Source: Catenulisporales bacterium (GTDB lineage: Bacteria > Actinomycetota > Actinomycetes > Streptomycetales > Catenulisporaceae). Taken from it: a stretch of DNA of 41,792 nucleotides. A program made the position numbers and the translations under genes. Below the pieces are notes generated by a model. The model did no database searches. It saw nothing but the letters and a program-made list of their open reading frames with translations, and had not been told where the DNA came from. Below, piece by piece: positions 6,335 through 33,701 of the stretch. How positions within the stretch are numbered: position 1 is the stretch's first letter; each line of letters begins with the position of its first letter. The stretch is taken from positions 1-41,792 of the forward strand of contig JAEKKI010000174.1 in NCBI GenBank assembly GCA_019510485.1, written 5' to 3'.

Positions 6335-10399
<4,065 letters not shown>

Positions 10400-10472
10400 A
10401 AACGGCGGAGGTGGAAACCGAGGTTTCGGCCGACCCCCTCGGCCGGCCGAATCCGGCATCGTGCAGAAGATC

Positions 10473-10507
10473 GCAGTCTGCCCGCCGCCCCACGGCGGGC
10501 AGACTGC
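10473..10507 (+). terminator. strong stem-loop downstream of the AfsR-like gene
   Basis: GCAGTCTGCCCGCC (10473-10486) pairs perfectly with 10494-10507 across a 7-nt loop, a 14-bp stem 74 nt after the stop codon. There is no T-run, as is usual for terminators in very GC-rich actinomycetes. The surrounding 316-nt gap (10400-10715) otherwise shows only GGAAACGG words at its left end, with no further gene. Confidence 0.7.
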
Positions 10508-10715
10508 GCGCTCTGGACCCCCCGGGTTCTGCCGGCCCCCGATGTGGAATCTCGCAGAACCCTCCCGGCCAGGTCCCTGACGGTGTTCCCTGGTTGACAC
10601 CCATTCTGGTGGCGGCGGCTTGCGTTTGGCTTGCGCCGGATGTGCGGTGCGCGAGGGCCGGCCCGGTGGGAAATCGATTGCGGCCCTGCCGGCGCCGCAG
10701 GAAGGATCACGGCGT

Positions 10716-11297
10716 ATGAGCGGAACTGACGAACCACCGAAGACCCTGCCGCCCGGCGTCCGGCCGCCGGAGCGCGCCGAGTTCGACGGCTTCGGCCTGC
10801 GCCGACCGACGCCCGCGGACGCCGAGGCGCTGCATGAGGCGATCAAAGCCACCTTCGCCGAACTGCACCCCTGGATGCCGTGGTGCACCGACCCGGTCCA
10901 GATCGAGGATCAGCGGGCCTGGATCGAGCGGGCCGAGAACGGCTGGGCGACGCAGGAGGCGTTCCACTGGTTCATCGTGGAATCGCAGGATGGCCCGGAG
11001 AAGCTGATCGGCGTCATCTCGCTCATGAACCGGATCGGGCCGGGCGGTCTGGAGATCGGCTACTGGCTCCGCACCGGCGCCACCGGACGCGGCGTGATGA
11101 CCCGGGCCGCGACCTGGCTCACGAACACCGCACTCGCCCTGCCGGGCGTCGAGCGTGTCGAGATCCACTGCGACGCGGCGAACGTGCGCAGCGCCGCCGT
11201 GCCGAAGCGGCTGGGATACCGGCTGGACCGGCAGGAGCCCGCTGAGCCGCAGGCGCCGGGTGACTCAGGGCTCGACCAATTCTGGATCACGCCGTAG
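10716..11297 (+). CDS. GNAT-family N-acetyltransferase (RimJ/RimL-like)
   Basis: The 193-residue protein belongs to the acetyltransferase group related to RimJ/RimL, which acetylates protein N-termini or small amines using acetyl-CoA. Visible features are the N-terminal LRRPTPADAEALHEAI segment, HPWMPWC, the central IGVISLMNRIGPGGLEIGYWL strand, an acetyl-CoA loop TGATGRGVMTRA in place of the usual QxxGxG, and the C-terminal VEIHCDAANVRSAAVPKRLGY typical of this subgroup. AGGAAGGA precedes the ATG by a suitable distance. It stands alone, between two strong hairpins. The substrate cannot be predicted. Confidence 0.88.
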   Translation: MSGTDEPPKTLPPGVRPPERAEFDGFGLRRPTPADAEALHEAIKATFAELHPWMPWCTDPVQIEDQRAWIERAENGWATQEAFHWFIVESQDGPEKLIGVISLMNRIGPGGLEIGYWLRTGATGRGVMTRAATWLTNTALALPGVERVEIHCDAANVRSAAVPKRLGYRLDRQEPAEPQAPGDSGLDQFWITP

Positions 11298-11312
11298 GGG
11301 CGAAGAAACGGC

Positions 11313-11347
11313 GATGCGCCGGCTGGGTCTGTTCCAGCCGGCGCATC
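11313..11347. terminator. bidirectional terminator between GNAT gene and pheT
   Basis: GATGCGCCGGCTGG (11313-11326) is the exact reverse complement of 11334-11347, with a 7-nt loop. It sits in the 66-nt gap between two convergent genes and so can end transcription from both sides. Confidence 0.8.
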
Positions 11348-11363
11348 GTGGTTCACGGTCTGC

Positions 11364-13861
11364 CTACGACCGCAACGCCGCCCCGGTCCGCGCCGCCGCC
11401 AGCGCCACCGCGGCTTCCCGGGCAGCGCTCGCCTCCTCCGCGGTCAACGTCCGATCAGGCGCCCGGAACCGCAGCGCGAAAGCCAGCGACTTGCGACCCT
11501 CCCCTATCCGCTCGCCGGTGTAGACGTCGAACAGCCGCAGCGACTCCAGCAACGGGCCGGCGCCTTCGCGCAGCGCCGCCTCCACGTAGTGCTCCGGCAC
11601 CGCGGCGTCCACGACCAAAGCGACATCCTGCGTGGCCACCGGCATCGCCGAGATCGCCGGGGCCCGGGTCAGGATCTCCTCGGCCGGGATCATCCGGTCC
11701 AGTTCCAGCTCCAGGGCGGCGGTGCGCGGCGGCAGCCCGAGGTCGGCGACCACCCGCGGATGCAGTTCGCCGGCGTGGCCGACCAGGCGGCCGTTCACCG
11801 CCAGGCGCGCGCAGCGGCCCGGATGCCAGGGCTCGTGCTGGTCCTGCGTCACCTCCAGCTCCACGCGGCAGGCGTCGGCGATGACGCGCGCGGCCTGGAT
11901 CGCGTCCTGCCAGCCGGCCGGGCGTCCCGGGCCCCACCAGCCGGCCGGTTCGCGCAGTCCGGCCAGCACGACCGCGACCCGGCGCGGTTGCAGCGGCAGG
12001 GCCGCGTCCAGGGACGCCAGCTCCTGCTCGCTCGGCCGGCGCTCGACCGTCAGCCGCGGCGCCACCGGGGCGGCGTCCTTGCGCGGCCGGAACACCAGGC
12101 CCTGCTCGAACAGCGCCAGGTCGCTGTTACCGCGGCCGACGTTGCGCCGCAGCGCCGCCAGCAGCCCCGGCAGCAGCGTCGTGCGCATCGACGGCTGCTC
12201 CTCGGAGATCGGGTTCGCCAGCTGCACGGTGTTGCGGCGCGGGTCGTCCTCGGACAGCCCGAGCGCGTCCAGGTCGGCCGGCCCGAGGAACGGGTAGGCG
12301 ATGACCTCGACGTAGCCGGCCGAGGCCAGCGCGGTGCCGACCCGGCGGCGGATCCGCTGGGCGTGGCTGTAGCCGGTGCCCGCGCTGGCCTTGGGCAGCG
12401 TCGAGGGCAGCCGGTCGAAGCCGGCCAGCCGGATCACCTCCTCGGCCAGGTCGTTCGGGTCGCGCAGGTCCGGACGCCAGCTCGGCGGGGTGGCCACCAA
12501 GGCATCGGAGCCGGAGGCGGCCACGTCGCAGCCGACCTGCCGCAGCCAGCGCTCCACTTCCTCGCGGGTGTATTCGACCCCTGCCACTCGCCCCGGGTGC
12601 GTCCACGGGATCGTGATCGCGACCGGCCGGCTCCCCCGGCCGACCACGGTCACCCCGTCGGCGGTGCCGCCGGCCAGCTCGACCAGCAGATCCACCACGC
12701 GCTGCGACGCGGTCCGGGCCGTCGCCGGGTCCGTGCCGCGCTCGAAGCGCTTGGCCGCCTCGGAGAACAGCTTGTGCCGCCGCACAGTCCGCGCGATCGA
12801 CGTCGCCTCGAAGTGCGCCGCCTCGATCACGACGTCGCTGGAGCCGTCGTGGATCTCGGTGGACGCCCCGCCCATCACGCCGGCCAGGCCGATCGGCCCG
12901 GAGTCGTCGGTGATCAGCAGGTCCGCCGGGTCCAGCCGGCGCTTGGCGCCGTCCAGCGTCTCCAGCACCTCGCCGGCGCGCGCCCTCCGCACCACGATCG
13001 GGCCGGACAGCCGCTGCCGGTCGTAGGCGTGGATCGGCTGGCCCAGCTCCAGCATCACGTAGTTGGTGACGTCGACGATCAGCGAGATCGGCCGCATCCC
13101 GGCCATCTGCAGCCGGCGCTGCATCCACAGCGGCGACGACGCCTGCGGGTCGACGCCGGTCACGGTCCGGGCCACGAACGTGTCGCACCCGGCCGGGTCC
13201 TCGATCCGCACCGGGTGGCCGGAATCGTCACTCGCGGGCGTGTCGAAGTCGGCCGGGTCCTGGAACGGCAGGTCGAAGCCGATCGCCGTCTCGCGCGCGA
13301 TACCGCGCAGCGACAGCGCGTACCCGCGGTCCGGGGTGACTTCGAACTCGATGACCTCATCGTCCAGACCCAGATACGCGATCGCGTCGGCACCGACCGG
13401 CGACTCGGGCGACAGCACGATGATGCCGCTGTGTTCCTCACCCATGCCGAGCTCGCGCGCGGAGCAGATCATGCCGTTGGAGTCACGGCCGTAGGTCTTG
13501 CGCTCGGCGATCCGGAAGTCGCCGGGCAGCACCGCACCGGGCAGCGCCACCACCACGTGGTCGCCGACAGCGAAGTTGCGCGCGCCGCAGACGATCGACT
13601 GCGGCGTGGCGGCCGAGCCCGGCCCCTCATCGGCCGTCGTGACAACGACCTGACAGTGCCGGATCGGCTTCTTGAACCCGGCCAGCTCCTCGATCGCCGC
13701 GACCTCGCCGACCACCAGCGGCCCGGTCAGGCCCTCGCCGACCCGGTGGATGGTCTCCAGCTTGGCGCCGCCGGTCTGGGTCAGCTTGTCCGCGACGGCG
13801 AAGGCCGTGATCCCGTCCGGCAGCGCAACGTGGTCCCGCAGCCAGGAGTAGGCGACGCGCA

Positions 13862-19740: not shown

Positions 19741-21633
19741 TCAGCTCGCGTCGTCGCCGGCCTCGGCCTTCTCCAGCACGGCCGCGAACGCCCGCACCGC
19801 CGCGGGTTCCACTTCCAGGAACGACGGCTGCTGGAGGTCGACGAGGACGATCTCCGCGCCCTCGGCCTTCGCTGCCGCGCAAGCCCGCGGGAAGGCCACC
19901 GGCATCGGTCGGGCCTCGGCGTTCCATGCCGCCAGCGCCGCCACCGATGTGAACACCGGCAGGGCACGGGTGCCGTCGGGCGCGACCAGGGTCACCAGCG
20001 CCATGTCGCTGTTCTTGTCCCGGCGCAGGTTGCGTCCCTGCTCGTCGGGGACTTCCTCGGCCTCGCCGAGCACCGCCACGATCGGCGCCAGCACTCGGGC
20101 GTTGAGGAGGTAGCCGTATGCGTGCTCGACGGCCGCCTCGCCGCGACCGTGCGCTTCCAGGACGGACAGCAGGGCCGGATCCGCGGTGCCGGTGTCGTCG
20201 GGGAAGGCGGAGGGGGCCAGGGTGCGTCCTGCGAAGTCGGTCATGGGCTCGACTGTAGTCGGCGGGGATGGGGCGTCCGATGGTGCGGCCGCGGGATCGG
20301 CGGTGGAGGTGGCGACGTCTGGTTCACCGAAGCTGGAAACGGGGGTCGAAGCAGCGACGTCTGGGACCCCGAAGCTGGAAATCGGGACCGCGACCTGAGC
20401 CTTGCGCCGCCCGCGCAGTACGAACCACGCGGCCAACAACAGCGAGCCGGTCATCGCGACCGCGGCGTCGGCGATCCCGCGCTGGCGCGGGTTCCAGCCA
20501 CCGAGGCTCTGTTCGGCTACGGTCTCGGGACCGAAGCCGAAGTACTTCGGCCCCTTATACGGCGGCGCGCTCGGCGTCGCCGGCAGGCCTTTCACATCCG
20601 CGGCGGCCTTCAACGCCGCCACCGGATCCACGATCCCGTTGCCGAGCTGATCGTCGCGGCCGTGTGCGGGGCGGTGGGAAGTGGTCCTCTTGAGGATCTG
20701 CGCGATCTGCATCGGACTCAGCGCCGGGTTCTCCGAGCGGATCAACGCCACGACGCCCGCGACGTACGCGCAAGCCGGGCTCGTCCCCGCGCCGATCAAC
20801 GTGTCGGAGCCGATCACCGGTCCGAACTCCGCATAGGTGTCGCCGCTGGGATCGTCGACCGGCAGCGCCATCGGGATGCCGACGCCGGGCGCGGCGACCG
20901 CGACGTCCCATCCGGTCGAGGAGAACTCCGCTCGCTCGCCGTACCGGTCGACGGCCGCCACGCCGATCACCCCGCGCTCGCCGGCCGGGTACTCGGTGAC
21001 GTCCTTCGCCGGGTCCTTGCCGCCGTTGCCGGCCGCGACCACGACCGACACGCCGTGCGCGATCGCGTACCGCACCGCGTCGGCCTCGTGCGTGGTGTCG
21101 CTGTCCACACCGGCGACGGTTCCGCCCAGCGACATGCTGATGACCTGCGCACCGTGGTCCACGGCGTACCGGATGCCTTCGGAGATCGGCGTCTGGGACA
21201 GCTCCAGCAGTCCACGGTCCGGGCTCTCCTCGTCGCGGATCACCCGCACCGACAGGATCTTGGCCTGGGGTGCGACACCCATGATGCCGTCGCTGTTGCC
21301 GGCACCGTGCCCGTGACCGGCGATCAACGACGCCATCCCGGTCCCGTGCACGCCCCACTCCGGATCACCCGGCTTCTCCTTGCCGCCGACCAGGTCCGGA
21401 CCGGCGGTCACCTGCCCGGTGAGGTCCGCGCGCGTACCCATCACTCCTGTATCGAGCACCGCGACGGTGATCCCGGCGCCCTTCGTGGTCTTCCACGCCT
21501 CGGGCAGGTTCAGGTACGCGATCGGCCACTGCGCCGAGCGCACCACGTCGGCGTGCGCGGCCGGTGCCGCTACGAGCAGTGGCAACATCGCGGCGACCGA
21601 AAGCGCCGACATCCGTCGCGGTATTCGGTTCAC
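19741..21633 (-). CDS. mycosin-like S8 serine protease fused in frame to an SseB domain
   Basis: The 630-residue product has a signal peptide (1-27) and a subtilisin-type domain with the triad Asp61 (AVLDTG), His96 (VHGTGMASLIAG) and Ser285 (GTSPACAYVAG), plus oxyanion Asn in VVAAGNGG. A transmembrane helix (about 387-405) and the basic stop RGRRK follow. This layout matches type VII secretion mycosins. The frame then continues through a repeat-bearing linker (14-residue repeat starting near residue 417) into an SseB N-terminal-like domain (about 464-630). The GTG at 21633 overlaps the upstream gene's stop (GTGA). Because MTDFAG at 20244 looks like a normal SseB start, with TACAGT 7 nt upstream, the SseB part may be made separately as a leaderless gene. 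No ESX genes are nearby. Confidence 0.85.
   Translation of the reverse strand: MNRIPRRMSALSVAAMLPLLVAAPAAHADVVRSAQWPIAYLNLPEAWKTTKGAGITVAVLDTGVMGTRADLTGQVTAGPDLVGGKEKPGDPEWGVHGTGMASLIAGHGHGAGNSDGIMGVAPQAKILSVRVIRDEESPDRGLLELSQTPISEGIRYAVDHGAQVISMSLGGTVAGVDSDTTHEADAVRYAIAHGVSVVVAAGNGGKDPAKDVTEYPAGERGVIGVAAVDRYGERAEFSSTGWDVAVAAPGVGIPMALPVDDPSGDTYAEFGPVIGSDTLIGAGTSPACAYVAGVVALIRSENPALSPMQIAQILKRTTSHRPAHGRDDQLGNGIVDPVAALKAAADVKGLPATPSAPPYKGPKYFGFGPETVAEQSLGGWNPRQRGIADAAVAMTGSLLLAAWFVLRGRRKAQVAVPISSFGVPDVAASTPVSSFGEPDVATSTADPAAAPSDAPSPPTTVEPMTDFAGRTLAPSAFPDDTGTADPALLSVLEAHGRGEAAVEHAYGYLLNARVLAPIVAVLGEAEEVPDEQGRNLRRDKNSDMALVTLVAPDGTRALPVFTSVAALAAWNAEARPMPVAFPRACAAAKAEGAEIVLVDLQQPSFLEVEPAAVRAFAAVLEKAEAGDDAS
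20312..20389. repeat. 42-nt imperfect tandem repeat in the S8-SseB linker
   Basis: GCGACGTCTGG...GAAGCTGGAAA starts at 20312 and recurs at 20354, an offset of 42 nt (14 codons). It encodes two similar linker peptides, PVSSFGEPDVATST and PISSFGVPDVAAST. Each copy contains the dispersed CGAAGCTGGAAA word. Confidence 0.75.
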
Positions 21634-22385
21634 TGTGGTTTCCCCGTGGTGTCGAACTGCGTGGCAAAGATCTGGGACAGCCCCAAAGACGCCTGCACCG
21701 GCGGCGAGTCGGCGACCAACGCCTTCCCGCTCCGGGCCCGCAGCTGCGCGTCGGGAGTTCCGGCACGTCCGTCGGCGAACGCCGAGACCACATAGACCAG
21801 GTACGAGCCGTTGGACGAGGCCTGGGAGTTCCAAACGGTCCGCTGGCCGTCGGCGAATCCGGCCGCCGCCGTCCCCGGGACCGCGAACACGCTCGGCATC
21901 AGCTCCGGACGGCGCGAGTCGGCATCCGGCGTCCACCGCCGCCAGACCTTGTCCCGGGCTTCCGGGCTCCCGTCGATGACGACGATCCCGACCGTCGCGA
22001 ACACCGTCTGGGTGATGTCTGTGTATGTGGCGCGCAGCACCTTGACGCAGGACGTGTCGGGCGCGTCATCGCGTAGCTCGGCGACGAAGGCCTTCGGCAG
22101 CACATCGCAGCCGGCCGCGCCGGCGATGCCGAGCCGCACGTACTGGCTGCCGTTGGCGACTGTCGCCGGAAACAGTTGATCGGCCGGCTTCGTCCGCCAC
22201 ATCGCGCGCACTGTCTGGTCCTGGAGTTGTGAGGATGACACCGCGGCCGGTTTCGCGAACTGCGGGGACTGCTCGGACTGCTCGGACACCGATGTGGACG
22301 AATCCGCCGTCAGCACGGCGACCGCGGCCAGGACACCCCCGACCAGCAAACTCGCCGCCGCCCCGAACCAGTACCGCTTAGGCAC
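21630..22385 (-). CDS. single-pass membrane protein of unknown function, partner of the S8 protease
   Basis: A 251-residue protein with a short basic start MPKRYW, one transmembrane helix (about 7-27) and an extracytoplasmic domain after a Ser/Gln-rich linker. The outer part has two cysteines about 18 residues apart (GCDVLP and TSCVKV) that could form a disulfide. It is co-directional with the S8 protease gene and overlaps it by 4 nt, so the two are translationally coupled and may act together at the membrane. I do not recognise a named domain. The start ATG at 22385 gives a normal N-in membrane anchor. Confidence 0.75.
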   Translation of the reverse strand: MPKRYWFGAAASLLVGGVLAAVAVLTADSSTSVSEQSEQSPQFAKPAAVSSSQLQDQTVRAMWRTKPADQLFPATVANGSQYVRLGIAGAAGCDVLPKAFVAELRDDAPDTSCVKVLRATYTDITQTVFATVGIVVIDGSPEARDKVWRRWTPDADSRRPELMPSVFAVPGTAAAGFADGQRTVWNSQASSNGSYLVYVVSAFADGRAGTPDAQLRARSGKALVADSPPVQASLGLSQIFATQFDTTGKPQ

Positions 22386-24458: not shown

Positions 24459-25490
24459 TCAGAAGTCGCCGTAGTCGACCTGCCAGCACGCCAACCCCAT
24501 CCGCCGCCACAGCGCCACCACGCGCGAGCGGTCGTCCAGCACGACTCGCACCGCGAACCGGTGCCGCACATGCGCGTCGAACAGTTCGCTCTTCACCACG
24601 TCGTCCGCGCGGGTGTCCCCAGCCTTGCGCATCCACAGCTCGTGATACGCGACACCGTGCGCGGCCAGCCAGCGCTCCGTGGCCTCGCGCACGTCCTCGC
24701 CGCGCCCCGACATCAAGATGATGCGATCCCCGCGTGCGGCGAACGCGACCAGGGCGTCGGCGGTGGCGACGATCAGAGCGTCCGATTCCAGCTTCGCCCA
24801 GTCGTACGGCCCGCGGCCCTTGTTGTCGGCGAGCGTGCCGTCGATATCGCACATCACCGCCGCCGGCAGCGCCGGGTCCGGCACGTAGGTCCGAACCGGC
24901 ACGACCTCGTTCAGCTCCGCCTCGCTCAGCTTCCACTTCGACGCCTTCGTCGAGGCCAGCCGCAGCGCCATGGCCCGGATGTGCTCCTCCCCCACCGGAT
25001 TCGGCCGCGCCGCGTCCCGCCGGACGCACTCCTCGACGTCGACATCGGTCAGGTCGTGCACCCGGAACTCCGCGCGCCCGCCGAGCAACTGCTTGAGCCG
25101 CTTCGGGATCCGCGCCACCAGGTGCGTGTTGTCCACGACCACATCGAACCCGGACTCGATCGCCGCCAGCACCGCCGCGTCCTGGACCGCGAGCACCGTC
25201 TCCTCGTGCGCGCGGCCCAGGCGCTTGGAGCCGTCGTTGTCGTCGAGCATCCGCCGCAGGTCGTCGAGGCTGACCCGGCGCATCCGGCCGTCGGCGGCGG
25301 CCATCAGCTCCCGGGCCCGGGTGGACTTGCCGGAGCCGGGCAGGCCGCGCATCAGGTGCACGACCGGCTTGCCGCGCTGCACGCCCGGGCCGGTCGGCAC
25401 CGGTGCGGCGGCGACCCCGGCCGGGAGGTCGTCGAGGTCGTCCCCGTCCACTACGTCCACGAGTGCGCTCGTCACGCCGTCGGTCACCAC
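24459..25490 (-). CDS. T4 Pnkp-like RNA 5'-kinase/3'-phosphatase
   Basis: This 343-residue end-healing enzyme has the same domain order as phage T4 polynucleotide kinase-phosphatase. The N-terminal kinase has Walker A GLPGSGKST (49-57), VVDNTHLVARIP near residue 118 and an Arg-bearing lid ECVRRDAARPNPVG. The C-terminal HAD phosphatase has DIDGTLA with Asp215 and Asp217, SGR at 262-264 and the acidic VVLDDRSRVV near 317-326. Such enzymes phosphorylate 5'-OH ends and remove 2',3'-cyclic or 3'-phosphates, giving ends that ligases can seal. A disordered acidic N-terminus of about 40 residues is extra. It is last in the operon, 25 nt after the Rnl1-type ligase. Two GTG codons stand at the start; the first (25490) follows AAGGGG. 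Confidence 0.92.
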   Translation of the reverse strand: MVTDGVTSALVDVVDGDDLDDLPAGVAAAPVPTGPGVQRGKPVVHLMRGLPGSGKSTRARELMAAADGRMRRVSLDDLRRMLDDNDGSKRLGRAHEETVLAVQDAAVLAAIESGFDVVVDNTHLVARIPKRLKQLLGGRAEFRVHDLTDVDVEECVRRDAARPNPVGEEHIRAMALRLASTKASKWKLSEAELNEVVPVRTYVPDPALPAAVMCDIDGTLADNKGRGPYDWAKLESDALIVATADALVAFAARGDRIILMSGRGEDVREATERWLAAHGVAYHELWMRKAGDTRADDVVKSELFDAHVRHRFAVRVVLDDRSRVVALWRRMGLACWQVDYGDF

Positions 25491-25515: not shown

Positions 25516-26745
25516 TCAGTTCTCATCGTCGTCCCGGAACGCCTCGCCGGCCTCCGGCTTCACCTCCCGCCAGACGTGCATGGCGATCGGCCGACCGTCC
25601 AGCAGCAGGAACATCCCGGACCGCACGAACCCGTCGAAGTCCTTCGCCGCCCGTGCGAACGCCCCGCGGTCGCCGGCCAGGTGCGCCAGCGAGCGGTGCG
25701 CGTCCTCGATCTTCGCAGCCAGCGCGTCGGCGCGCACCGTCAGGTCGTCACAAACCGCGCGGACCCAGGCGTCGTACTCGTCGGGCACGTCCGCCAGCAG
25801 CGGCGCGAGCGGCCCGCCGGGGATCCGGCGCATGCCGACGACCTCGTTGGGCTGCATGCCGAGCGCCTGCGCGATCTGCTTATCGGTGGCCTGCGGGTAG
25901 CGCTGCATACCCAGGGCGCGCCAGATGTGCCGAGGGGTGATGTTGGTCAGCCGGTGGTGCAGGGAGACGTAGCCGGTCAGCTTGGTCTTGGTGCGCACGC
26001 CGGAGGCGAAGCGGATGACCCAGCCCTCGGCATCGGTGCCGGTGGCCTCGGCACCGTTCAGGTGCTGGTTCTTCTCCGCCAGCGCGGCGAGCACGCCGAA
26101 GGTGTCCGTCCAGTCGTAGGTGCGCACGACAGTGCCGATCCCCTGCCAGGCCGGAGCGGCCTGGCGCAGCGGCAGCTCGGTGCCGTCGGCGCGGAACGCG
26201 GCCAGCAGCACCAGGTCGCGGCGGTCGCCGTAGTTCACGACGATGCGGTTCTCCGGATAGATGATCTCGGCGAGGTACGTCACCGAGGGGTCCAGCGCGG
26301 AGGTGTCGGCGGCATCGAGGTAGCGCTGGGCCCAGGCCGCCTGGTCGGAGATGAACGAGCCCTTGGACGCCGTGCGCCAGGCGCCGTCGTAGTGGAACAC
26401 GATGCCCAGGGAGCCGTCGACCTTGTCGTAGACCTCGAACGGCTCGTCGGGCAGCGGCGGGGCGAAGTCGGCCGTGCCGTGCTGGCCGTGGTTGAAGAAC
26501 TTCGGCAGGCAGAAGGCGGCCACGCGGCCGGTCGTGTCGTCCACGACCAGGCCGCGGGTGCGGATGGTGACGGGGGTCCAGTACTGCTCGTACTGGCAGG
26601 TGCGGCTGTAAGTGTAGATCGACAGCGGCAGGGTCGGGTGCGCGCGGCGCGTGACCCGGTCCGCGGCGACCTCGCGAGCCAGTTCGTCCGGGTCCAGGAC
26701 GTCGGACAGCAGGAGTCGAACCCCTGCTGTCATCTGGTCACTCAT
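25516..26745 (-). CDS. T4 RNA ligase 1-like ATP-dependent RNA ligase
   Basis: This 409-residue protein resembles the Rnl1 ligases that reseal tRNA anticodon loops. The nucleotidyl lysine is Lys108 in VYDKVDGSLGI. Upstream is the family signature YTYSRTCQYEQYW with RGLVVDD and PKFFNHGQHG. Motif III is LAEIIYPENRIVV (about 158-170), motif IV AEGWVIRF (239-246) and motif V the lysine pair in RTKTKLTGYV (253, 255). The C-terminal roughly 150 residues, helical, correspond to the tRNA-specifying domain of Rnl1. The ATG overlaps the Rnl5 stop by 8 nt, so the two ligases are translated together. All catalytic motifs are intact. Confidence 0.93.
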   Translation of the reverse strand: MSDQMTAGVRLLLSDVLDPDELAREVAADRVTRRAHPTLPLSIYTYSRTCQYEQYWTPVTIRTRGLVVDDTTGRVAAFCLPKFFNHGQHGTADFAPPLPDEPFEVYDKVDGSLGIVFHYDGAWRTASKGSFISDQAAWAQRYLDAADTSALDPSVTYLAEIIYPENRIVVNYGDRRDLVLLAAFRADGTELPLRQAAPAWQGIGTVVRTYDWTDTFGVLAALAEKNQHLNGAEATGTDAEGWVIRFASGVRTKTKLTGYVSLHHRLTNITPRHIWRALGMQRYPQATDKQIAQALGMQPNEVVGMRRIPGGPLAPLLADVPDEYDAWVRAVCDDLTVRADALAAKIEDAHRSLAHLAGDRGAFARAAKDFDGFVRSGMFLLLDGRPIAMHVWREVKPEAGEAFRDDDEN

Positions 26746-27823
26746 ACTCGGTTCCCCCGCTCCTCGTCACATACTCCGCCGAGACGATCTTGCCGATCGT
26801 GCGGCTGCCCACCACGTCGTTGCGGTGCTCTTGCTGCGCGCGCACCACGATGCCCTCACGGATGTGCGCGCTCGTGCCGCTGACGGTCTCCTTGCCGGAG
26901 GCGACGGCCAGCAGCAGCGCCTCATCGTAAGGGCCTTCATACAGCACCGGCACCCCGGGGATGTCCAGGTCCGCGACCGAGGCCAGGGCCTTGGCCAGCT
27001 CGGGCACGTCGAGCCAGCGGACTGTGCCGTCGACGTCGACGCAGATGTCGAAGACGGCGTAGCCGGGGCGGTCCTGGGCGTCGGCGCCGTAGGCCAGGTC
27101 TTGCACGCCCTTTCCGTAGACCTCGCCATAGATGCCGACGCGGCGCGCGCCGTAGGACTCGGCGATCCGGGCGGCGGCCTCGGGCAGGCGGTAGCCGCGG
27201 ACGGTGCGCCAGTAGAGGTTCTTGTCGGCCTCGGCCAGGGCCAGATACTTGGCGCCGAATCCCTTGGACGACACCAGGTGCTCCCCGGTCTCGGCCAGGT
27301 ACGTGTACAGGCAGCAGGTGCCGTGCACCTTCTCGGTGGCGGACACCGGTTCGCCGGGTTCGAAGATGCCGGGATAGCGGGCGATGTTCTCGATGTCGGT
27401 CCACGGCAGCAGGTCGACGGCGGAGACGACGTCCCCGGACATGCTCACCGGCACCGGCGGCACCCACTTGACGATGCCGAGTTGCTCGGCGAAGTCCGCG
27501 CCGCCGCGGTGCGCGGCGGCCAGGTCGACGCCGTCGAGCGCCTTCGGGCGGCAGACGATGCCCTGGGACAGCTCGCCGCGCAGCCGGATGGCCTTGACAC
27601 GGTCCTTGGCCGGGCCGGCGAGCCGGCCGGTGAGGCCCAGCTCCTCGATCAGGTCCGGCGGCAGCACGGCCTGCTCGGGGATGTATATCGCGTAGTCACC
27701 GGTCCGGTAGGCGCCTTTGGCGACGACGGCGCGGAACAGGCCGACCTGCGCCAGCTCCAACGCGTCGGCGTTGGGGTGGACGTGGATGGTCAGCGGCTCG
27801 GCGGTGACACGCAGGGTGGACAT
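26738..27823 (-). CDS. Rnl5-family RNA ligase (DraRnl-type)
   Basis: The 361-residue protein matches the ligase family founded by Deinococcus radiodurans DraRnl, which seals 3'-OH/5'-phosphate RNA nicks. An N-terminal OB fold (about 1-125, MSTLRVTAEPLTIHVHPNAD) is the hallmark of this family. The nucleotidyltransferase domain has the adenylation lysine Lys165 in ATEKVHGTC, the same residue number as in DraRnl, then IYGEVYG (motif III-like), YAVFDICVD and motif IV IREGIVVR (322-328), and ends with a RTIGKIVSAEYVTR segment. The ATG at 27823 is chosen because the OB fold begins right after it, although the frame is open 40 codons upstream. A 171-nt gap before it could hold a separate promoter. 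Confidence 0.93.
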   Translation of the reverse strand: MSTLRVTAEPLTIHVHPNADALELAQVGLFRAVVAKGAYRTGDYAIYIPEQAVLPPDLIEELGLTGRLAGPAKDRVKAIRLRGELSQGIVCRPKALDGVDLAAAHRGGADFAEQLGIVKWVPPVPVSMSGDVVSAVDLLPWTDIENIARYPGIFEPGEPVSATEKVHGTCCLYTYLAETGEHLVSSKGFGAKYLALAEADKNLYWRTVRGYRLPEAAARIAESYGARRVGIYGEVYGKGVQDLAYGADAQDRPGYAVFDICVDVDGTVRWLDVPELAKALASVADLDIPGVPVLYEGPYDEALLLAVASGKETVSGTSAHIREGIVVRAQQEHRNDVVGSRTIGKIVSAEYVTRSGGTEYE

Positions 27824-27994
27824 GGCGTTCTCGTCTCGTGGGTGGGGATCGTGAGGTCTTCCGGGAGTGGACTCCATGACCGTAGAGGTCAGGGTTCTGA
27901 GGCGCCTAACGGTTTTCGCGCTGATGGGTTCGCGCCGGAGCACTGGCCGAGAACGAATGCCGGCCGGCGCGGCGCTGTGAAGGCACGGTGGGAG

Positions 27995-28843
27995 CTAGCG
28001 CTGGGGGCCTGTCGCCGTTTCCAGGTCCAGCGTCCAGTAGTCGTGCACCTGGCGGTAGCCGATGCGCTGGTAGAGGGCGTTGCTGGTGGGATTCCCCAGG
28101 TCGGTGAACAGCACGACTTCGTGGCCTGCTTCCCGGGCACGCCGGCTGATCGCCGCGGTGACGGCTCCGGCGTAGCCGCGACCACGCAGGGTCGGTGGCG
28201 TGTAGACCGGGGCGACGCGTACCGTGCCGCCGACCGGCACGGTCGCACCGGCCATGGACACCGGGACGCCGTGGACTTCCCACAGCATCAGCCCGTCGTT
28301 CGCGATGCGGTCGTCGACGACGCGGTCGTGGTCGTGGGCGGGCTGGCCGGTGTCGGCGGCGAACGCGCTGAACCAGTCAAACAAACCGTCGCGGTCGGCG
28401 GGCCCGGCGGGCCGGGCGGTCCCCGGAGGTGCGGGCCGGGGTGGCGTCAGGTCAACCAGCCGATAGAGGCGGTGCCGCTCGGATACCTTCGATCCCCGGC
28501 CCGTGGTTGCCTGCCACGCTCGCGCGAACGCCTCGGCGATGTCGGCGGGAGCAGTGATGGCGCCGGCGCCCCGCTGTACCTCGACCAGCTGCGCGACGGC
28601 CTGCGCCGGCAGGCCGGTGACCAGGGTCGGCCGCGGGGGCGTGCGCAGAAAAGCACCCTGCACGGCCTCGCCGGAACAGTACCAGCCGAACTGCGGTGTC
28701 TCAGCTCCGTAGGCTGCGGCACCGCGCCTGCGCAGGGTCGCCGCGACGGTCAGCAACACGGTGTTGCGGACCGGGTCGGCGATCAGGAAGCTTCCGGCTG
28801 CACGTTCGAACTCTTCCAGGTCGGATGTCACATGCCAGGCCAT
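27995..28843 (-). CDS. GNAT-family acetyltransferase within the RNA-repair row
   Basis: The 282-residue protein has a divergent N-terminal half (MAWHVTSDLEEFERAAGSFL) and a C-terminal GNAT domain with the acetyl-CoA loop TLRGRGYAGAVTAAISRRA and the strand VVLFTDLGNPTSNALYQRIG followed by YRQV. This arrangement is common in FR47-like acetyltransferases. It lies 54 nt after the Pnkp remnant and 171 nt before the Rnl5 ligase, all on one strand. Whether it has a role in RNA repair or is a passenger is unknown. ATG 28843 is preferred to the GTG five codons upstream because homologous N-termini begin MAW-like. Confidence 0.85.
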   Translation of the reverse strand: MAWHVTSDLEEFERAAGSFLIADPVRNTVLLTVAATLRRRGAAAYGAETPQFGWYCSGEAVQGAFLRTPPRPTLVTGLPAQAVAQLVEVQRGAGAITAPADIAEAFARAWQATTGRGSKVSERHRLYRLVDLTPPRPAPPGTARPAGPADRDGLFDWFSAFAADTGQPAHDHDRVVDDRIANDGLMLWEVHGVPVSMAGATVPVGGTVRVAPVYTPPTLRGRGYAGAVTAAISRRAREAGHEVVLFTDLGNPTSNALYQRIGYRQVHDYWTLDLETATGPQR

Positions 28844-28897
28844 GCCCCACCGTCGCACAGTGCGCTGGGCGCGGCCTACCGGATTTCGCCCCGGAGC

Positions 28898-29152
28898 TCA
28901 CAACCGCGGATCCACCGGCTCCGACTCCAAAGCCAGCACCGCGAACACCGCCTCATGCACCCGCCACAACGGCTCCCCACCCACGAACCGCTCCAGCGCC
29001 TCCAGCCCGAGCGCGTACTCCCGGCTCGCCAGCGACCGCTTACGGCCCAGGCCGCGCTGACGCAGGCGCTCCAGGTTCGCCGGCTCCAAGTATTCGGGCC
29101 CGTAGATGATCCGCAGGTACTCCGGACCACGGCACTTCACGCCCGGCTGCAC
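28898..29152 (-). pseudogene. out-of-frame C-terminal remnant of Pnkp
   Basis: This 84-codon stretch encodes QPGVKCRGPEYLRIIYGPEY, KRSLASREYALGLEALERF and the terminal VFAVLALESEPVDPRL, which is the conserved end of bacterial Pnkp ligase domains. It starts a few bases from where the 745-residue Pnkp frame ends and is offset by two positions. It has no start of its own and is best read as the original end of Pnkp, disconnected by a deletion. Confidence 0.85.
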
Positions 29153-31374
29153 CGGACCGCGCGGGCCTCGTCGTCGAGGTCGACGACGCGGCGCCGGGTC
29201 GCCGTGAAGAACTCGGGGTCGGCGGCCACCAGCCGGTCGGCCAGCTCGATGTGCCAGGCGTTGCCCTGGCCGACCGCATGGTTCGCGCCCTGCGATGCCA
29301 GGATCTGGAACGGCGCCAGCCGCAGGCCCTCCAGGCCGTCGACCGGCCAGCAGTACCGGCCGTAGGCGGCGGTGAAGGCGACGGCGTCAGCCAGCCGGCG
29401 CTCCTGCCGGGCGGCCAGGTCGCCGACGTCCAATCCGCGCTGCGCGGCGGCAGCCAGAACCGACGTCGCCGCGGCCAACGACGTGCGCGCCGCCGCGCCG
29501 ACCGCCGCGTACTGGTCCCGCAGCAGCCCCATGGCCTTGGCGGACCAAGGCAGCAGTTCGCAGTCCAGCAGCAGCCACTCCGTGTCCAGCTCCGACCACA
29601 GACTGGTCTTGTCAACAGTCGATCGCACCCGGGCCAGCACCGCCTCCACCCGCTCCGGCCGGTCGAAGAACGGCCGACCGGTACGCGTGTAGACGGCGCC
29701 GGTGCTGCCGTCCTCGACGCCGAAGCGGTTCCGGGCGGCGTCGGCGTCGCGAGCCAACACGACCACCGCCCGCGAACCCATGTGCTTCTCCTCGCACAGC
29801 AGTTCCCTGACGCCCTCCGCCCGGTACGCTCCGAACGCCTCGGCCGGGTGCTCCAGGAACCCGGGCAGCGTCGAGGTCCCGCACGGCGCCATCGTCGGCG
29901 GCAGGTACACCAGCCACCGCGGGTCCACCGCGAACCGGCTCATCACCTCCAGCGCGGCGGCGGCGTTCTCCTCCTGCACCGTGATCCGGCCCAGGTGCCG
30001 GGCCTGGACCGTGCGGCGGCCGAGGACGTCGTCCAGGTCGAGCACCCCGGGGTCGCGCCGCACCACGCCGGACGCCGAGGCGAACGTCGTGGCCGCCAGC
30101 GGGCGCACGGGCTCGTACCAGACCGCCTCGGCCGGTACCGAGACCGGCTCGCGCTCCGGGTACCGCAGGGCGCTGAGACGGCCGCCGAACACGACACCGG
30201 TGTCCAGGCACAGGGTGTTGTTGACCCACTCCAGGTCCAGGACCGGGGTGTGTCCGTACAGCACGGTCGCCTGGCCCCGGTAGTCGTTCGCCCACGGGTA
30301 GCGCACGGGCAGCCCGAACTCGTCGGTCTCGCCGGTCGTCTCCCCGTACATCGCGAACGAGCGCACCCGGCCGGAGGCGCGGCCGTGGAACTCCTCCTTG
30401 AGGCCGGCGTGCGCCACCACCAGCTTGCCGCCGTCCAGGACGTAGTGGCTGATCAGCCCGTCGCAGAAGGCGCGGGCCCGCTTACGGAAGTCGTCGTCCT
30501 CGGCGGCCAGCTGAGCCAGCGACTCGGCGAGGCCGTGCGCGACCTTGACGTTGCGGCCGTCCAGGGCGCGCACCAGCTTGTTCTCGTGGTTGCCGGTGAC
30601 GCACAGCGCGTGTCCGGCCTCGACCATGCCCATCACCAGCCGCAGCACGCCGGGCGTGTCGGGGCCGCGGTCGACGAGGTCGCCGACGAAGACCGCGGTG
30701 CGGCCGGCCGGGTGCACGGCGTCGACCGGGCGGCCGGCTTCGTCGCGGACGAGGGTGTAGCCGAGCGAGGTCAGCAGCGTTTCGAGCTCCGAACGGCAGC
30801 CGTGCACGTCGCCGATGACGTCGAACGGGCCGGTGAGATCCCGTTTGTCGTTGTAGGCCTTCTCGTAGGTGATGACGGCTTCGTCGACCTCTTCGACGCC
30901 GCGCAGGACGTGGACCTTGCGGAAGCCCTCACGTGACAGGTTGCGCAGGCCGGCGCGGAGCTCGCGGCGTTGGCGCGAGATGACGCGGGCCGGCAGGTCG
31001 GCTCGGTCTGCTCGGTCGGCGTTGCGGTCGACGCAGACTCGCTCGGGGAGGTCCAGGACGATCGCGACCGGCAGCACGTCGTGTTCGCGCGCCACCTTGA
31101 CCAGGGCTTCGCGAGCCTTGCTCTGCACGTTGGTGGCGTCGACGACGGTCAGCAGACCGCGGCGCAGGCGGATCCCGACGATGTGGTGCAGGAGCGCGAA
31201 GGCGTCGGGGGTGGCCGACTGGTCGTTCTCGTCGTCGGCGACGATGCCGCGGCAGGCGTCGGAGGAGACGACCGCGGTGGAGCGGAAGTGCTGGCGGGCG
31301 AAGGTGGATTTGCCGGAGCCGCTGGTGCCGATCAGGACGACCAGCGACAGTTCCGGGACGGCCAGCTCAGGCAT
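29137..31374 (-). CDS. bacterial Pnkp: RNA kinase-phosphatase with truncated ligase domain
   Basis: Bacterial Pnkp joins three RNA-repair activities in one chain. The 5'-OH kinase is present (Walker A GTSGSGKST 16-24; VVDATNV near 77-83). The metallophosphatase that trims 2',3'-cyclic and 3'-phosphates is present (GDVHGC 188-193, GDLVDRG 231-237, GNHE 261-264, VVAHAG, YGHTP). The ligase starts normally, with adenylation Lys530 in EEKHMGSRAVV and motif III-like EWLLLDCELLPW. After RRVVDLDDEA the frame runs into an aberrant tail and stops at 745 residues, against about 850 in relatives. About 100 nt carrying ligase motif V (EGMVVKP-type) appear deleted. Its ATG overlaps the Hen1 stop by 8 nt, as in other Pnkp-Hen1 pairs. 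Sealing by this copy is probably lost. Confidence 0.88.
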   Translation of the reverse strand: MPELAVPELSLVVLIGTSGSGKSTFARQHFRSTAVVSSDACRGIVADDENDQSATPDAFALLHHIVGIRLRRGLLTVVDATNVQSKAREALVKVAREHDVLPVAIVLDLPERVCVDRNADRADRADLPARVISRQRRELRAGLRNLSREGFRKVHVLRGVEEVDEAVITYEKAYNDKRDLTGPFDVIGDVHGCRSELETLLTSLGYTLVRDEAGRPVDAVHPAGRTAVFVGDLVDRGPDTPGVLRLVMGMVEAGHALCVTGNHENKLVRALDGRNVKVAHGLAESLAQLAAEDDDFRKRARAFCDGLISHYVLDGGKLVVAHAGLKEEFHGRASGRVRSFAMYGETTGETDEFGLPVRYPWANDYRGQATVLYGHTPVLDLEWVNNTLCLDTGVVFGGRLSALRYPEREPVSVPAEAVWYEPVRPLAATTFASASGVVRRDPGVLDLDDVLGRRTVQARHLGRITVQEENAAAALEVMSRFAVDPRWLVYLPPTMAPCGTSTLPGFLEHPAEAFGAYRAEGVRELLCEEKHMGSRAVVVLARDADAARNRFGVEDGSTGAVYTRTGRPFFDRPERVEAVLARVRSTVDKTSLWSELDTEWLLLDCELLPWSAKAMGLLRDQYAAVGAAARTSLAAATSVLAAAAQRGLDVGDLAARQERRLADAVAFTAAYGRYCWPVDGLEGLRLAPFQILASQGANHAVGQGNAWHIELADRLVAADPEFFTATRRRVVDLDDEARAVRCSRA

Positions 31375-33143: not shown

Positions 33144-33701
33144 TCAGCGCACGAGCGGCACATCGCTCAGGTATCCCGCCGGCACAGCGTCGGTCAGCCA
33201 CACGCCGTTCCCGGTGACGAAGAACGCGTGGCCGTCGGCGTGCATGCGAGCGGCGGCCACGGCCAGCACCGCCGGCTTGCCGTGCCGGCTGCCGACCTTC
33301 TCCGCGGTCTCGGTGTCCGGGGACAGGTGGACGGCGTGCCGTGCCATCGGCAGCAGGCCGTCGCGCCGGATCGCCTCAAGCGAGCGGTGCGCGGTGCCGT
33401 GGTACAGCACCTCCGGCGGCTCGGCCGGCTCGTATCCGAGTTCCACCGGCACCGAATGCCCCTGCCGGGCCCGGATCAGCGCCGCGCTGTCGTCGAACTC
33501 GAAACGCCGCTTGTTGTTCTCGGCCACCACCTGCTCCAACTGCTCGCGGCTGATCGGGCGGCCGTGTGCGGCGGACTGCGCCAGGAGGTCGTCGACCAGC
33601 ACCCAGCCGGCCTCGTCCATCGTCAGGCCGATCGCTTCGGGGTTGTGGCGCAGCCAGTTCGACATCCGCTTCGACAAGCGGACCATCTCTTTCTCATTCA
33701 T
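33144..33701 (-). CDS. kptA: RNA 2'-phosphotransferase (Tpt1/KptA)
   Basis: Tpt1 uses NAD+ to remove an internal 2'-phosphate from RNA, releasing ADP-ribose 1'',2''-cyclic phosphate. The 185-residue length matches the family. The N-lobe has the RNA-binding Arg-His pair in SNWLRHNPEAIGLTMDEAGWV, then NNKRRFEF; the C-lobe NAD+ fold has VLYHGTA, AVHLSPDTETAEKVGSRHG and HAFFVTGNGVWLTDAVP. ATG 33701 is chosen because it places LRHNP at the usual distance; no clear Shine-Dalgarno is present. It heads the RNA-repair row on the same strand as hen1. Presence beside ligases suggests that some junctions carry 2'-phosphate. Confidence 0.92.
   Translation of the reverse strand: MNEKEMVRLSKRMSNWLRHNPEAIGLTMDEAGWVLVDDLLAQSAAHGRPISREQLEQVVAENNKRRFEFDDSAALIRARQGHSVPVELGYEPAEPPEVLYHGTAHRSLEAIRRDGLLPMARHAVHLSPDTETAEKVGSRHGKPAVLAVAAARMHADGHAFFVTGNGVWLTDAVPAGYLSDVPLVR

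Follow-up and report, generated by a model that had tools for sequence, protein, structure and literature searches.

To our knowledge, the ligase behind the known substrate of the RNA 2'-phosphotransferase Tpt1/KptA is absent from model bacteria, and the role of the enzyme in bacteria is therefore still open. Tpt1 transfers an RNA 2'-phosphate to NAD+ (PMC6333775), and the substrate of its bacterial members is not settled (PMC6333775; PMC6582358), in agreement with an earlier note on the DNA studied here. E. coli ThpR produces RNA 2'-monophosphate ends (PMC6333775), E. coli KptA removes an internal tRNA 2'-phosphate in vivo (PMC9095486), and a scheme of RNA repair by KptA, a 2H enzyme and a ligase has been proposed for phages and cells (PMC9503650). 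In repair by Pnkp and Hen1, the healed 3' end has its 2'-OH methylated by Hen1 prior to sealing, and the repaired RNA is thereby protected (PMC4411300). The Catenulispora gene row described here is worth testing because bacterial KptA is still without a settled role: it natively sets KptA beside an enzyme that methylates the same 2' oxygen, and makes the question directly testable with a few recombinant proteins.

The window, by which we mean the whole 41,792-nucleotide stretch of DNA analyzed, carries on one strand and in this order genes for KptA, Hen1, Pnkp, a GNAT protein, an Rnl5-type ligase, a T4-Rnl1-like ligase and a T4-type polynucleotide kinase-phosphatase (PNKP) (Table 1). Apart from the GNAT protein, the partners of KptA in the row are enzymes of RNA end healing, ligation or 2'-methylation. 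The earlier note had recognized KptA and placed it at the head of an RNA-repair row; both assignments stand, the row being on one strand and kept across the genus, and the T4-type PNKP is a further member, not listed in the note.

Table 1. Genes of the KptA row and their coordinates in the window
Feature	Position	Strand	Remarks
KptA/Tpt1, predicted NAD-dependent RNA 2'-phosphotransferase	33144..33701	minus	185 aa; first gene of the row
Hen1, 3'-terminal RNA ribose 2'-O-methyltransferase, 573 aa	31367..33088	minus	TIGR04074, PF12623
Pnkp: kinase, phosphatase and most of the ligase domain	29137..31374	minus	frame broken near the 3' end
Pnkp ligase domain, C-terminal end, in another frame	28898..29152	minus	TIGR04075 positions 768-851
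GNAT-family acetyltransferase	27995..28858	minus	FR47/Acetyltransf_1
Rnl5-type (DRB0094/DraRnl family) ATP-dependent RNA ligase	26738..27943	minus	TIGR02306
T4-Rnl1-like RNA ligase, KVDG motif	25516..26745	minus	PF09511, 54.8 bits
T4-type polynucleotide kinase/HAD 3'-phosphatase	24459..25490	minus	PF25109, AAA_33; last gene of the row

The KptA open reading frame is complete, from an ATG at 33701 to a stop at 33144 on the minus strand. Its product scores 172 bits against Pfam PF01885 (cut-off 26; model positions 2-176 of 177 covered) and 256.9 against the NCBIfam RNA 2'-phosphotransferase model NF002014 (cut-off 239), and its nearest solved structure is 7kw8 (E=1.7e-53). The Arg-His-Arg-Arg tetrad (R18, H19, R66 and R121) and the histidine and threonine of the HGT motif (H101 and T103), residues named in the report of the Clostridium thermocellum structure (PMC6333775), do not vary among 26 aligned family members; judged by these residues, the active site is intact. 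Ratios of dN/dS within Catenulispora range from 0.14 to 0.42 (mean 0.27 over 28 pairs), indicating purifying selection. One KptA copy was found in the genome of the window, and the nearest named relative, at 87% identity, is from the Catenulispora MAG L043.

Hen1 follows KptA after 55 bp and overlaps Pnkp by 8 bp. It exceeds the TIGR04074 cut-off (660.7 bits against 340), scores 367 bits against Hen1_L (PF12623) and matches both solved halves of bacterial Hen1, 4dqz and 3jwg. Pnkp matches TIGR04075 at 1174.9 bits over model positions 2-733 of 851, and PF16542 over positions 1-264 of 377. The Rnl5-type ligase (381.8 bits against TIGR02306, cut-off 151.15) has the Naegleria gruberi RNA ligase 5cot as its nearest solved relative; from the extent of the family match and a likely start at Met41, its true start is likely near 27823. 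An 8-bp overlap joins it to the Rnl1-like ligase, whose family profile retrieves T4 Rnl1 (2c5u) at E=1.7e-12, the match to a chain named tRNA ligase being much weaker (E=0.94); a fungal-type Trl1 ligase that would leave a 2'-phosphate is not supported by this profile comparison. The structure predicted for the Rnl1-like protein from 12 sequences is too weak (pLDDT 64, pTM 0.43) to serve in a fold search. The T4-type PNKP scores 169.8 bits against PF25109 (HAD_PNKP) and also matches AAA_33, and its nearest solved relatives are Pnkp1 (4xrp, E=1.3e-41) and T4 Pnkp (1ltq, E=2e-34). The genes are presumably co-transcribed; a consensus scan, which is uninformative for actinobacteria, found no sigma-70-type promoter upstream of KptA. 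PADLOC defense models gave no match in the row except a weak methyltransferase similarity of Hen1, and we therefore reject a known anti-phage defense system. Elsewhere in the window (19741-21936, minus strand), a single open frame fuses a subtilase to an SseB N-terminal domain.

The break in Pnkp comes from a 94-bp deletion at about 29164/29165, within the ligase domain, that removes the EGMVVKP stretch and shifts the frame. It is found in the window only and not in five aligned relatives; Pnkp is a single full-length match in all relatives found, so that the intact ligase domain of a Pnkp-Hen1 system is absent in the window and present in relatives. Because the assembly is 77% complete and in 326 contigs, the deletion may be an assembly fault or a mutation of this strain. 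If it is real, sealing would fall to Rnl5 or Rnl1.

Across the family, KptA occurs in 13 of 14 genomes. Eight Catenulispora genomes, that of the window included, have contigs that span the junction, and in every one of them Hen1 comes immediately after KptA on the same strand; one of these genomes is complete in a single contig of 10,467,782 bp; two further Catenulispora genomes, with contig breaks at the junction, were left out of the eight. Gaps between KptA and Hen1 across the genus, taken from alignment ends, are roughly 45-105 bp. The full seven-gene order stands on a single contig in the window and in genomes G304, G307 and G308, while elsewhere in Catenulispora there are parts of the row on broken contigs, with GNAT lost (G301) or Rnl1 split. 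Unrelated genes lie between Pnkp and Rnl5 in G306, G307 and G308. KptA, Hen1 and Pnkp thus stay tight while the middle of the locus is plastic, with GNAT lost and foreign genes and an integrated element inserted. A polysaccharide deacetylase/glycosyltransferase gene upstream of KptA is also kept in several genomes. The GNAT gene, gone from the G301 row, evolves fast: between species it is 56-63% identical, and its neighbors are 75-90% identical.

The Rnl1-like gene of three Catenulispora genomes is interrupted at around codon 50-58. Its halves lie at L139 2323-3783 and L140 14545-17913 (G301), at L137 1187 and L138 18271 (G303) and at L113 13252 and L141 8560-9636 (G309), about 30 kb apart in G301 and 42 kb in G303. 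The G301 junction has a 16-bp shared core, CAGTACGAGCAGTACT, with a tyrosine recombinase nearby, and past the junctions of G309 and G301 lies an in-frame ATG or GTG that could give a new short N-terminus. The arrangement suggests an integrative element whose attachment site is an RNA-repair ligase gene.

In the sister-genus genomes sampled, KptA is apart from Pnkp, which one of them lacks altogether, and neither Rnl5 nor Rnl1 is present. The KptA tree groups the Catenulispora genes in one clade (100/98), nested with those of the sister genera (99/96), a clade that also holds a long-branched planctomycete MAG row. Since the tree places it with genera in which KptA and Pnkp are apart, KptA was most likely inherited within the family and moved next to Hen1-Pnkp in the genus; a recent horizontal gain is not supported. 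A ThpR-type 2H phosphoesterase match is present in all 14 family genomes, 13 of them above the curated cut-off.

The earlier note had offered two mechanisms, removal of 2'-phosphates and ADP-ribosylation of 5'-phosphate ends. The position beside Hen1, the ThpR-type match in every family genome and the published scheme (PMC9503650) favor the first, and the second is a biochemical possibility (PMC6582358). Our preferred reading, to which we give somewhat better than even chances, is that KptA belongs to an RNA-repair operon as its predicted NAD-dependent 2'-phosphate remover. Ribotoxins would leave 2',3'-cyclic phosphate and 5'-OH ends. Some of the 3' ends would then be opened so that a 2'-phosphate remains, a step that the ThpR-type 2H phosphoesterase of the cell, for one, could perform. 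Such a phosphate would block the position that Hen1 must methylate and, once ligated, would stay as a scar at the junction. KptA, which we infer to meet 2'-phosphate ends in this organism, would move the phosphate to NAD+ and restore the 2'-OH, and Hen1 could then methylate it. Pnkp or the T4-type PNKP would heal the ends, and Pnkp, Rnl5 or Rnl1 would seal the 5'-PO4 to the 3'-OH. In an alternative timing, KptA would clear the junction scar after ligation; the T4-type pair in yeast leaves 2'-OH junctions and bypasses Tpt1, and action before ligation is therefore favored.

Several points temper this reading. The phosphatases of Pnkp and T4-type PNKP are thought to take off 2',3'-cyclic and 3'-phosphates themselves, and the row might therefore not need KptA; Tpt1 enzymes reportedly vary in their activity on terminal phosphates (Munir 2019). 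It also counts against the reading that the linkage arose once and was passed on within a single genus. Because unrelated genes separate them in some species, the KptA-Hen1-Pnkp and Rnl5-Rnl1-PNKP halves need not be one unit. In a more ambitious form of the proposal, which we hold only tentatively and think less probable than not, KptA would supply the 2'-phosphate removal that Hen1-type "repair with immunity" has been missing, and this step, 2'-methylation and ligation would work as one line. If it were true, Hen1 would methylate and so immunize the cleared ends, and bacterial Tpt1 would gain a natural substrate and a physiological role.

The linkage of KptA to RNA ligases claimed in the earlier note extends to the whole genus Catenulispora (the Pnkp ligase domain, Rnl5 and the T4-Rnl1-like enzyme), but not to bacterial KptA in general. 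Among 297 genomes of the class, KptA was found in 54, Pnkp in 87, Hen1 in 88, Rnl5 in 24 and Rnl1 in 12 (over cut-off). By coordinates, KptA is close to Pnkp in none of the 39 other genomes carrying both, which implies that most bacterial KptA works without the linkage; the two lie on different contigs or, in single-contig genomes of the Streptomyces order, about 2 Mb apart. KptA, Hen1-Pnkp, Rnl5 and Rnl1-PNKP are at separate places in Streptomyces. In the four Streptomyces-order genomes read, Rnl1 is paired with the T4-type PNKP in a two-gene cassette, and a more divergent pair is seen in actinobacterium L127; the Rnl5 loci read in other actinobacteria, five in all, are without the row's partners. 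At 67 further KptA loci from many phyla, tblastn and profiles for Rnl1, Rnl5 and PNKP found no Hen1, Pnkp, Rnl5, Rnl1 or PNKP within flanks of up to 10 kb, and a general linkage of KptA and ligases across bacteria is rejected on these 67 loci. Ten KptA neighbors from Bacteroidota and Acidobacteriota, inspected directly, included no ligase. Pfam assignments of 80 KptA-neighboring genes are mixed and mostly metabolic among the 25 most frequent of 120 families, a listing that could miss a single divergent ligase. At the level of whole genomes, co-occurrence is strong: 40 of the 54 genomes with KptA also have Pnkp, as do 47 of the 243 without it (odds ratio 12), and outside the window's own order the figures are 17 of 30 and 47 of 239, both comparisons being confounded by kinship and genome size.

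The same 80 genes, neighbors of solo KptA genes, include two for ADP-ribosylglycohydrolases and one for a NADAR protein, a hint that the ADP-ribose product of KptA is processed. In two actinobacterial genomes that are complete in other respects, the KptA match falls into two pieces (G133:C1:1672443-1672918 and G194:C9:49143-49639), and the gene is therefore probably broken there.

The scatter of these modules outside the genus lends weight to a rival in which there is no shared pathway: a chance event in the genus ancestor would have set KptA upstream of Hen1-Pnkp, and gene-order inertia would have kept it there while it did a separate job of its own, as it does in other bacteria. KptA is unlinked to these genes in Streptomyces, in the sister genera and at the 67 further loci, the named families of its neighbors elsewhere are mixed and mostly metabolic, the deacetylase/glycosyltransferase gene upstream is likewise kept in several genomes, and a single event of linkage leaves room for such descent. 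Against it, KptA-Hen1-Pnkp is tight in an otherwise plastic locus, and every other module gathered there is of the RNA-repair kind and lies dispersed in Streptomyces. We judge chance placement unlikely, if worth keeping in mind.

On virus-classified contigs, ligases do occur near KptA. Of 80 KptA loci examined in IMG/VR, three have an Rnl5-like protein with OB-fold and RNA ligase domains (PF21189 and PF09414) less than 4 kb away, at 0.8 kb (L165), 2 kb (L176) and 3.3 kb (L151). Co-occurrence with ligases elsewhere, on which the earlier note had partly staked its idea, is thus seen on three virus-classified contigs and, confounded, at genome level with Pnkp, but not as linkage in the cellular genomes examined outside the genus. 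These viral-labeled neighborhoods are independent of the Catenulispora linkage; the label of L176 is doubtful because folD-like and YqeY genes are present. The L165 row (8120-13014) is a compact NAD/RNA-repair cassette of an Rnl5-like ligase, a methyltransferase-like ORF, KptA, a metallophosphoesterase, a NADAR gene and a HAD-like ORF. On the large contig L151, a nicotinamide/nicotinate phosphoribosyltransferase-family gene of NAD salvage (11320-12906) lies about 0.8 kb after KptA.

Alternatively, KptA could ADP-ribosylate 5'-phosphate RNA ends as a cap, mark or block during repair, with a macrodomain or similar hydrolase to uncap them. S. coelicolor KptA (SCO3953) carries out this reaction on 5'-phosphorylated RNA in vitro and SCO6450 reverses it (PMC6582358; PMC11833690), and the window KptA is 52-61% identical to the KptAs sampled from its order. 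We consider this improbable: the ligases of the row would all be stopped by a 5'-ADP-ribose cap, the domain searches turned up no ADP-ribosylhydrolase gene in the row, and 2'-phosphotransfer is the activity conserved across TRPT1 homologs (PMC6582358). More doubtful still, to the point of being very improbable, is the erasure of an internal regulatory tRNA 2'-phosphate written by an ArkI-type kinase and unrelated to breaks: archaeal ArkI writes and KptA erases Up47, some bacterial ArkI homologs are active and E. coli KptA can erase Up47 in vivo (PMC9095486), but ArkI is mainly archaeal and thermophilic and the kinases of the row are end-healing Pnkp types.

Taken as a repair operon with a 2'-phosphate remover, as we prefer, the row can be set against four known systems. 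It resembles the Pnkp-Hen1 bacterial repair operon in having adjacent, overlapping Hen1 and Pnkp genes for end healing, 2'-O-methylation and ligation; Hen1 has the N-terminal Hen1_L region and methyltransferase domain and adjoins Pnkp, as expected of such an operon. The Catenulispora row differs in adding KptA upstream and two ligases and a second kinase-phosphatase downstream, and in the window's assembly by a broken Pnkp ligase domain. Its last two genes, a KxDG-motif Rnl1-family ligase followed directly by a kinase with a HAD phosphatase, are by their sequences a candidate counterpart of the phage T4 Pnkp-Rnl1 tRNA repair pair. Unlike that pair they are chromosomal in actinobacteria, forming a separate two-gene cassette in Streptomyces and, among the genomes sampled, joined to Hen1-Pnkp and KptA only in Catenulispora. 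The Rnl5-type ligase exceeds the curated cut-off of the Deinococcus DRB0094 (DraRnl) family, and it sits with Rnl1 and PNKP, unlike Rnl5 at the five loci examined in other actinobacteria, which are without these. The row thus shows scattered RNA-repair modules gathered into one locus in one bacterial genus. The Tpt1 of Runella slithyformis is said to belong to a "putative RNA repair gene cluster" that ties KptA to RNA ligation. With the KptA-2H-RNA ligase scheme (PMC9503650), the row shares a KptA genomically tied to ligation and a proposed clearing of 2'-phosphates; the 2H enzyme is not in the row, a ThpR-family gene being elsewhere in the genome, and the partner is Hen1-Pnkp with 2'-O-methylation. 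KptA and ligases acting together in RNA repair had already been proposed, and the partnership with Hen1-Pnkp in Catenulispora is the new form.
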